Positions 22,388-24,314 of a stretch of 64,000 nt of DNA are shown piece by piece. Source of the DNA: an uncultured Verrucomicrobia subdivision 3 bacterium (lineage in GTDB: Bacteria; Verrucomicrobiota; Verrucomicrobiia; Limisphaerales; UBA11358); contig CAIXUZ010000060.1 in assembly GCA_903922735.1 (NCBI GenBank), forward strand, positions 124,001 through 188,000. The letters run 5' to 3'. Below the pieces are notes generated by a model. That model was not told the origin of the DNA and did no database searches. It saw nothing but the letters and a program-made list of their open reading frames with translations. The translations under genes and the position numbers were made by a program. The first letter of the stretch is position 1. Every line of letters begins with the position of its first letter.

Positions 22388-22422
22388 TCGGTTTTTAGCT
22401 GCGGAGCAGCGTCCGGTAGTAG

Positions 22423-22832
22423 CCCACGGTGAAACCGTGGGTTTCATGTCCGAAACAAATCAAGCCCCGGCCGGGGCGAAAGAAAACCGGCGAAGCTTGT
22501 GCAAACATTTTCTGCCGCCCCTGCCGGGGCTGGTTCCCTTTTATCCGTTTAACCCACGGTGAAACCGTGGGTTTCATGCCCGAAACAAATCAAGCCCCAG
22601 CCGGGGCGAAAGAAAACCGGCGAAGCTTGTGTAAACATTTTCTGCCGCCCCTGCCGGGGCTGGTTCCCTTTTATCCGTTTAACCCACGGTGAAACCGTGG
22701 GTTTCATGTCCGAAAACAAATCAAGCCCCAGCCGGGGCGAAAGAAAACCGGCGAAGCTTGTGCAAACATTTTCTGCCGCCCCTGCCGGGGCTCATTCCCT
22801 TTTATCCGTTTAACCCACGGTTTCACCGTGGG
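22423..22832. repeat. 130-bp tandem repeat, three units (22423-22552, 22553-22682, 22683-22813) plus terminal inverted remnant
   Basis: Near-identical CCCACGGTGAAACCGTGGGTTTCATGyCCGAAACAAATCAAGCCCCrGCCGGGGCGAAAGAAAACC...TTATCCGTTTAA; the last copy ends CCCACGGTTTCACCGTGGG, the exact reverse complement of the head palindrome. Confidence 0.95.
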
Positions 22833-22961
22833 CTATTTTCTTTCGTCGCTCCGCGACTTTCCGGCCGGCATCACGCTTTTGTTTTGCGCCCGCCAAACAT
22901 TTTATAAAGAAAAACCACCCCGGCGGCGCTCCGGCGCACCCGGCGCGCGACCCGTTCATTT

Positions 22962-23094: not shown

Positions 23095-23427
23095 AACCCG
23101 TTCTCCAACGCAGGCAACCGGTGGTCTGCCGGAACGAATCGGTTGGCAAAACCCGCGAACTGGTTGCCTGATGAGCGAACCGGTTCGTCCGGTTTGGCAA
23201 CCGGTTGTCTCGCGGAGCGAACCGGTTGTCTTGGGGAACGAACGGGCTTCCAAATTATTGAACCCAGTTTAATAAAATTCGAACTGGGTTTCCAAATTAT
23301 CAAACCTGGTTCCAAATTTATTGAACTGGGTGCTAAAATTTAAGAACCAAGTTCCTTGTTTTTGGAACTTGGTTCTCTTTTTTGGCAACGGGTTGCCCAA
23401 GGATTGAACCTGGTTCGTTCAGGGCGT
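23095..23427. repeat. degenerate 16-unit tandem array, 20-21 bp period, AACCGGTT-like dyad core in each unit
   Basis: Units starting at 23095, 23116, 23137, 23158, 23178, 23199, 23220, 23241, 23261, 23282, 23303, 23324, 23345, 23366, 23387 and 23407, nearly all beginning AACnnGGTT or its variants. Confidence 0.85.
23344..23383 (+). terminator. terminator-like perfect hairpin inside the 21-bp array
   Basis: GAACCAAGTTCC (23344-23355) / GGAACTTGGTTC (23364-23375) then TCTTTTTT. Confidence 0.45.
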
Positions 23428-24024
23428 GGGCGTAGTGGTGGTTTTCTTTTTGCCCTGGCCTTCAAAGTAGGAGCCGAGGTTGCTCACCACGTCCTTGTAT
23501 TCGCCGCTGAAATTGGCGGCTTTGAAGAAGTTATAGACCTTGAGCGCCTGGTCGTAGCCGTCGCTGTTGGCCAGGGAGAAGGCGTCTTTGACCTTGTTGT
23601 GGAAGTTATCCTCGGCGTTGACGATGGCGACGAATTGGGCGAGGAAGGTGACGTCCTTGGTGAATTCGGAGAGGTTGAAGTTGGCGGGGAGGACGCCGGG
23701 AAATTGCTGGGCGTATTGGCAGGCCTGCTGGATGAAGGGCAGCCGGCCGTTGGCCGCCTTGTTGATGCGTTTCTTCTCCTCGTCGGTGAGGTTGCGGAGA
23801 AAGGTGAGGAGGGTGAGCAGTCCCTGAAAATGGGCCAGGGCGGCGGCTTTGTCGGTGTCGTTCAGGGTGGCGCTGATTTTGTTTTGCATATCGTTGTTGT
23901 TGTTTTGCTGGTTGATGGCCGCCATCACTTCCTCGACCGTTCCGCCCCAGCGCGCCCCCGGCGTATCCCAGCGCAGCGGCTGTCCATTGGGCAGAATCAT
24001 GTCGAGACGAAGCGGTGTGGCCAT
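23419..24024 (-). CDS. hypothetical protein, mostly helical, no signal peptide
   Basis: Coherent ORF MATPLRLDMILPNGQPLRWDTPGARWGGTVEEVM...KKKTTTTPTP; start set to ATG at 24024; no family recognised. Confidence 0.6.
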   Translation of the reverse strand: MATPLRLDMILPNGQPLRWDTPGARWGGTVEEVMAAINQQNNNNDMQNKISATLNDTDKAAALAHFQGLLTLLTFLRNLTDEEKKRINKAANGRLPFIQQACQYAQQFPGVLPANFNLSEFTKDVTFLAQFVAIVNAEDNFHNKVKDAFSLANSDGYDQALKVYNFFKAANFSGEYKDVVSNLGSYFEGQGKKKTTTTPTP

Positions 24025-24314
24025 ATGTTTATTTGTCGTTTTATCCGTTGGGGATTCGCGATGAAGCACAGCCCTCCCCATGGCCGCACTACGGTTTTAA
24101 TCCCGGTGCGAAAAAATTGGAAGCGGGAAATTGCGCCGGCGAAAGTTTTTATCCAGGTTGAAGGTGAAAATTAAATTTCCGAATCGTCGCGCGCGTCAGC
24201 GGCTCACGGCAGGCGGGTGCTGACGCCCGCGCCATTCATCGCGATTTCAAAAACGGCATAAAAACGGCAGGCGGCGCATTTTATCGTTTTTATTTGTCCG
24301 GATTTGATTTTTAA

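Follow-up and report, generated by a model that had tools for sequence, protein, structure and literature searches.

Does the tandem array that lies at the stop codon of an orphan gene in this bacterium stand by itself, or does it belong to a wider class of elements, and what might such elements do? The window analysed here is the whole stretch of 64,000 nucleotides in which that array occurs. The array is a member of a large, non-coding class of 21-mer arrays typical of one order of Verrucomicrobiota, in which unit length appears to be maintained and sequence not. No description of such arrays was found in the open-access literature, and the class is apparently undescribed so far.

The window array consists of 16 units, whose successive starts lie 21 bp apart in twelve cases and 20 bp apart in three (Table 1). 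The first-pass annotation had described it from the letters of the DNA, and it is clearly not a product of chance: identity at lag 21 extended to 167 of 329 positions, compared with at most 117 at any lag in 1000 dinucleotide shuffles. Tandem Repeats Finder (TRF) reported only 2.1 copies because the units have diverged. The palindrome-like cores claimed for the units were largely borne out, since at least three of the four palindromic pairs were kept in 14 of the 16 cores, compared with 11% of random places; broken cores occur at 23241 and 23324. The neighbouring cores quoted as exact reverse complements are present (23261/23282 and 23345/23366). The array had also been placed at the stop codon of the gene, here called X, and unit 16 indeed covers the final codons and the stop of that minus-strand frame.

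Table 1. Positions in the window of the array, its parts and the features near it.
Feature	Position	Strand	Basis
Whole array, 16 units of 20-21 bp with AAC..GTT dyad cores	23095-23427	.	Lag identity, core count
Units 1-7, GC-rich spacers, 8-bp cores AACCGGTT/AACTGGTT/AATCGGTT	23095-23240	.	Sequence
Units 8-14, AT-rich spacers (CCAAATTATT-like), mostly 9-bp cores, both reverse-complement neighbour pairs	23241-23386	.	Sequence
Units 15-16	23387-23427	.	Sequence
Starts of units 1-8	23095, 23116, 23137, 23158, 23178, 23199, 23220, 23241		
Starts of units 9-16	23261, 23282, 23303, 23324, 23345, 23366, 23387, 23407		
Orphan gene X, 201 aa from 24024; 220 aa from an in-frame ATG at 24081	23419-24024	-	ORF
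Acido-Lenti-1 RNA (RF01687)	22814-22858	+	Rfam, 47 bits, above gathering score
Second Acido-Lenti-1 copy, sub-threshold	22397-22441	-	Rfam
130-bp tandem repeat, three copies (96% match), with CCCACGGTGAAACCGTGGG hairpins	22423-22832		

BLAST searches with the DNA of the window array found nothing similar elsewhere in its genome or in 58 other genomes, and Rfam covariance models gave only sub-threshold chance matches over the array. A search for AACYNRGTT core pairs recovered one more array in the genome (C45); in relatives it recovered none that was genuine, and the counts there equalled those of the reversed control. An array with a GAACCGGTTC-type core as in the window array was seen in another family of the order (L167, 412-652), with no X gene adjacent. 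The Acido-Lenti-1 RNA and its second copy lie outside the array, and the 130-bp tandem repeat lies between an ileS-like gene and the array.

To place the array in its genome, diverged tandem arrays were scanned at any lag from 8 to 120 with an ungapped detector in 1.128 Mb of the 4.48-Mb genome (82 contigs). This yielded 32 arrays, 20 of them at lag 21, 42 or 63 and one at 41; by extrapolation, there would be about 80 arrays of 21 bp per genome. The units are mostly unrelated in sequence from one array to another (for example CACATGTG dyads, TTTTCCCAAGGGGAAAA, AAACTTAGTTT and GGAACAATGATGTTCC), and the AACCGGTT core of the first description did not prove to be a common motif. No feature of the class varies less than the spacing of two helical turns proposed there: of the 533 steps registered between units, 528 measured 21 bp, three 20 bp and two 22 bp, a figure that describes the well-behaved majority, as arrays rich in 20-bp steps register badly, and that is somewhat biased to constant steps by its origin in ungapped-lag arrays.

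Arrays of this kind were also found beyond the genome, among assemblies that are mostly metagenomic, and array and leader counts include related copies. In 316 kb from genomes of the same genus, part of it picked around X genes, 6 of 9 arrays had lags of 20-22 or 63 bp. The same lags were found for 4 of 11 arrays in 338 kb from other families of the order, one of these at an X gene, and for three arrays in 339 kb of the same class, all adjoining X homologues on contigs chosen for X. At least one array called in the class (L040) is in truth a 7-bp repeat; such repeats (TCTCAGG, TGACTTC) were seen as lag 14 at L040 8374-8449 and 10376-10445 and at L032 12706-12775. One array, L060 11222-11387, is possibly coding.

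As a class, the arrays are non-coding. Unit mismatches lacked a 3-base phase (Fisher p 0.95), and open frames within arrays were not in notable excess (102 observed, 90 expected). Dyad symmetry of the units exceeded that of column-permuted units (Stouffer z 12.9). It remained above chance over 51 arrays, as the first description would have it, with the dyad centre picked from one half of the units and the test made on the rest (z 9.8). The compensatory variation suggested at the same time did not hold up. An initial signal of within-unit covariation (z 4.6) came from picking the dyad centre on the same data and fell to a Stouffer z of 1.05 when the centre was taken from column margins; the mean z was 0.15, similar to the 0.09 of a slid control. 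Neighbouring units paired no better than distant ones. A 10.5-bp AA/TT periodicity inside units was likewise discarded, its power giving z 7 against column permutation and z 0.35 under a dinucleotide-preserving null. Unit identity was 0.654, 0.654, 0.625, 0.603 and 0.577 at successive offsets, so that neighbours are more alike than distant units. Such a fall of identity with distance is the usual mark of local duplication, or minisatellite turnover.

Homologues of X were detected in 11 of 49 genomes of the same genus, in 14 of 196 genomes sampled over the order and in 2 of 194 other genomes sampled over the phylum, both of the latter in the same class. The closest named source of a homologue is an uncultured Verrucomicrobia subdivision 3 bacterium. 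No X was found in phages. One homologue (WP_100922920.1; L190, 4001-4468) is carried by plasmid pTs417 of the gammaproteobacterial Candidatus Thiodictyon syntrophicum and has no array. The first-pass annotation had held that arrays absent downstream of orthologues, together with no dyad conservation beyond chance, would indicate a decaying minisatellite. This was not the case: among the 39 homologues with readable downstream DNA, 26 had a 20-22 bp array, or one at double or triple that period, within 600 bp downstream. The corresponding counts were 2 of 37 upstream, none at other lags and 31 of 4000 random segments (0.8%). These homologues share ancestry, and L126 and L142 belong to a single genome, so they do not count as fully independent observations. 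The arrays 3' of different X genes differ in sequence, as do the neighbouring genes, so that the linkage is not accounted for by common flanking DNA. A third recurrent gene (M(P/A)FDPTKPVE..DAAE) was noticed near X loci and arrays at L021 2425-2853 (reverse complement), L135 2231-2569 (-) and L141 2242-2580 (-).

The X protein had no match above chance in Pfam, NCBIfam, PHROGs or PADLOC; a Pfam hit to OGG_N (E 0.05) fell below the cut-off and was set aside. An AlphaFold model built from 16 homologues is all-helical (mean pLDDT 83.6, pTM 0.54), and no fold match to it was found among PDB and viral structures.

A second orphan family showed the same association on the opposite side. Its members, of about 205-250 aa, match fn3 only, at least one of them carrying a C-terminal fibronectin type III domain, and are here called FN3-like. 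The family is multi-copy (L191-L220), occurring in 21 of 49 same-genus genomes with up to 13 copies per genome. An array was present upstream at 25 of 30 loci and downstream at none, with none at control lags. A role in the 3' UTR, as first proposed for the array, is therefore doubtful as a general one, both from this upstream position and from the terminator-like hairpins frequently seen by eye between X and its array. Among stretches totalling 1.67 Mb, the majority of which had been taken without these genes in mind, all four family genes had an array (three FN3-like and one X, that of the window itself), but 24 of the 28 arrays had no X or FN3-like gene within 800 bp. The genes thus nearly always have arrays, and most arrays are solo. 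A comparison of the X and FN3-like profiles gave a probability of 13.6, which was not taken as homology, and their cores are not demonstrably related. By eye, the two families share a Trp/Tyr-rich N-terminal stretch (such as PLTW..WNG) before a second methionine (L016, L021, L147, L191 and the frame from 24024 in the window); as there is a stop codon inside it in L016, this stretch may be a separate short frame.

Many arrays have a leader of T-tracts on one side only, in which A/T tracts are phased at about 10.4 bp. In 18 leaders, pairs of A4/T4 tracts numbered 51, 42 and 33 at 10, 20 and 30 bp and were scarce at 14-16 and 24-26 bp. Over both flanks of the arrays of the window's own genome, 105 tract pairs were in phase and 6 out of phase, against a background ratio of 0.71, some leaders being copies of one family so that the in-phase counts are not all independent. 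A one-sided leader was found at 10 of 17 of these arrays; the flank test gave none at the window array. FN3-like loci have the order leader, array, gene, with the phased leader on the array side away from the gene (86 in-phase and 27 out-of-phase pairs, compared with 13 and 14 on the gene side). Judged by its letters, the leader has the tract pattern known from intrinsically curved DNA.

One leader family of about 70 bp has nine copies in the genome and five in two relatives. It usually runs straight into a 21-bp array, and these arrays are for the most part unrelated in sequence. Leader copies whose arrays are related were seen inside single genomes, at L092, L097 and L099 of G043 and at L101 and L104 of the window's own genome. 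At L098 (1441-1566) a leader copy is followed by about one unit, which resembles the L101 and L104 arrays, and no array; this is possibly the starting or collapsed state of an array. Of 25 FN3-like loci, 4 had a TATACA box where the array starts (background 0.2%; none in two other intervals tested). The box is also present in family-A leaders, in some as TTGACC-17-TATACA. Downstream of the leader in L097, L100 and L103 there are GTTAGGC/GTTAGAC sites followed by short ORFs, which resemble integron cassette boundaries.

Twenty-one base pairs is the smallest whole base count that gives whole turns of B-DNA at 10.5 bp, so that with this period every dyad stays on one face of the helix. That the dyads are bound on one DNA face, as the first-pass annotation had imagined, is plausible as a putative function. 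The constant period and the curved-type leader lead us to favour, tentatively, the reading that the arrays are DNA-architecture elements with two helical turns per unit beside curved-type DNA, read by shape or spacing. Each unit would show its dyad on the same helix face. A dimeric DNA-binding protein that reads shape or spacing, either a nucleoid protein or X itself, might align along the array beside the curved leader, and the bent or wrapped nucleoprotein segment so formed could set the topology or expression of the neighbouring gene. The units would drift and be replaced through local duplication while the period stays, because shape and spacing, not sequence, are read. The period census, the near-uniform steps, the cross-validated dyad symmetry, the one-sided phased leader, the gene linkage and the non-coding nature of the arrays speak for architecture. 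Against it stand the leaderless window array with its three 20-bp steps, the lack of a 10.5-bp AA/TT excess in units, the 24 solo arrays and the minisatellite-like similarity of neighbours. With somewhat more reserve, we suggest that the arrays and genes may form an undescribed genetic unit, in which small orphan genes (X and FN3-like) usually have, always on the same side, a non-coding array beside phased A-tracts. Nothing but the unit of exactly two helical turns would be conserved in such an array, which would be recognised by spacing and shape instead of sequence, dozens of these arrays being solo in each genome.

The main rival to an architectural role is an RNA element. The leader would then serve as promoter for transcription of the array, and the RNA, a 5' leader to FN3-like genes or a downstream RNA of X, would form serial or paired hairpins controlling translation, stability or termination. 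This reading is possible but not probable. On both strands the window array folded, as RNA, far better than its shuffles did (z -6.9 and -10.0), but any dyad-rich repeat is expected to fold well on both strands. The TATACA boxes at array starts and in family-A leaders, and the order of leader, array and gene at FN3-like loci, would suit transcription through the array; however, the -35 box is not conserved and X is often parted from its array by hairpins of terminator type. RNA hairpins do not need an exact 21-nt spacing, and neither covariation in units nor excess pairing of neighbours was detected. Rather doubtful is the alternative that the arrays are minisatellites evolving neutrally under a mutational bias to 21-bp duplications, the gene linkage reflecting shared repeat-rich, fast-evolving intergenic islands. 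The decay of neighbour similarity with distance, the units mostly unrelated between arrays, the excess of arrays over linked genes (28 to 4), the 21-bp arrays in two gene-free genomes or samples and the other repeats adjoining the window array (the 130-bp tandem repeat and Acido-Lenti-1) all agree with it. It covers local homogenisation but not the side fixed for each gene family (FN3-like, 25/30 up and 0/30 down; X, 26/39 down and 2/37 up); at control periods no such arrays were seen. The near absence of indels in non-coding repeats, the one-sided phased leader and the dyad symmetry also argue against neutrality.

Three further explanations fare less well. The genes and arrays could be a repeat-protein pair like RAYT and REP, with the X or FN3-like protein spreading or maintaining the arrays and giving rise to the solo ones. 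Each family does have an adjacent array, many solo arrays are scattered, and related copies of leader and array occur within one genome (in G043; and in the window's own genome at L101, L104 and the one-unit L098). Even so, the occurrence of arrays in genomes without a detected X (G040, G053) and the dissimilarity of X to any transposase, nuclease or other known family or fold make such a pair improbable. That X is the effector of a guide-RNA array, as in CRISPR or TIGR systems, is very improbable: an orphan gene beside an array, conserved cores with more variable spacers and a one-sided leader recall such systems, but spacers are not independent, neighbouring units being 65% identical, the whole unit repeats in most arrays, and X lacks a Pfam family or solved fold. 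An identity with TIGR or CRISPR arrays was dropped on array anatomy. That the arrays encode heptad repeats, 21 bp being seven codons, can hardly be credited. Some are open in one frame, as with the ORF at 3829-4311 of L186, but the mismatches show no 3-base phase, open frames are not notably in excess and the window array contains 20-bp steps.

If length and phase, not sequence, are selected, the arrays would provide a large natural set in which bacterial reading of DNA shape could be tested, and their position on a fixed side offers a handle on two widespread protein families of no known function. A neutral origin would still be informative, as it would need a mutational process making 21-bp duplications almost exclusively.

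Among known systems, minisatellites or VNTRs resemble the arrays in their head-to-tail units, in the similarity and homogenisation of neighbouring units and in an apparent turnover by local duplication. Their unit lengths are locus-specific, whereas here nearly every array has units of 21 bp, accompanied by dyads, a phased leader and gene linkage. Plasmid iterons are direct repeats of 17-22 bp that recur roughly every two helical turns, next to AT-rich DNA, and have a helical phasing near 10.5 bp; the present arrays differ in that no replication gene was seen beside those that were read, and in their roughly 80 chromosomal copies of differing sequence. CRISPR arrays also combine tandem units with a one-sided, AT-rich leader, but the arrays described here have neither a constant repeat nor independent spacers, and no cas-like gene was recognised by eye among the neighbouring ORFs.

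Intrinsically curved DNA with phased A-tracts (PMC3940949, PMC3431218) resembles many of the arrays in a helical phasing near 10.5 bp; A-tracts are in phase at 10 of 17 arrays of the genome and not at the window array, and curvature here is a prediction from sequence. TIGR arrays consist of two alternating repeats of 8-12 nt with 9-nt spacers and are associated with a Nop-domain protein (PMC12045711). As in TIGR-Tas loci, the array adjoins a gene, the repeat varies between loci and there are 5-15 units (PMC12045711), but here whole units repeat, with a neighbour identity of 0.65, in place of alternating repeats with independent 9-nt spacers, and no Nop domain was found in X with Pfam or PDB structures. 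REPs, as in the REP/BIME/REPIN systems with RAYT, are palindromes of 20-40 bp whose sequence is common within a genome (PMC2817692, PMC3733652). Like them, the arrays offer many palindromic, non-coding intergenic repeats per genome, sometimes clustered and with a linked gene (PMC2817692, PMC3733652). The linked genes are unlike a transposase, none being recognisable as Y1 (HUH), as X has no family or fold and the FN3-like proteins match only fn3; nor is there a family sequence across the genome, the DNA of the window array having no copies and the units being mostly unrelated. What the arrays have in common, in contrast to REPs, is a period and a leader, not a sequence, and their units run head to tail at exactly 21 bp.
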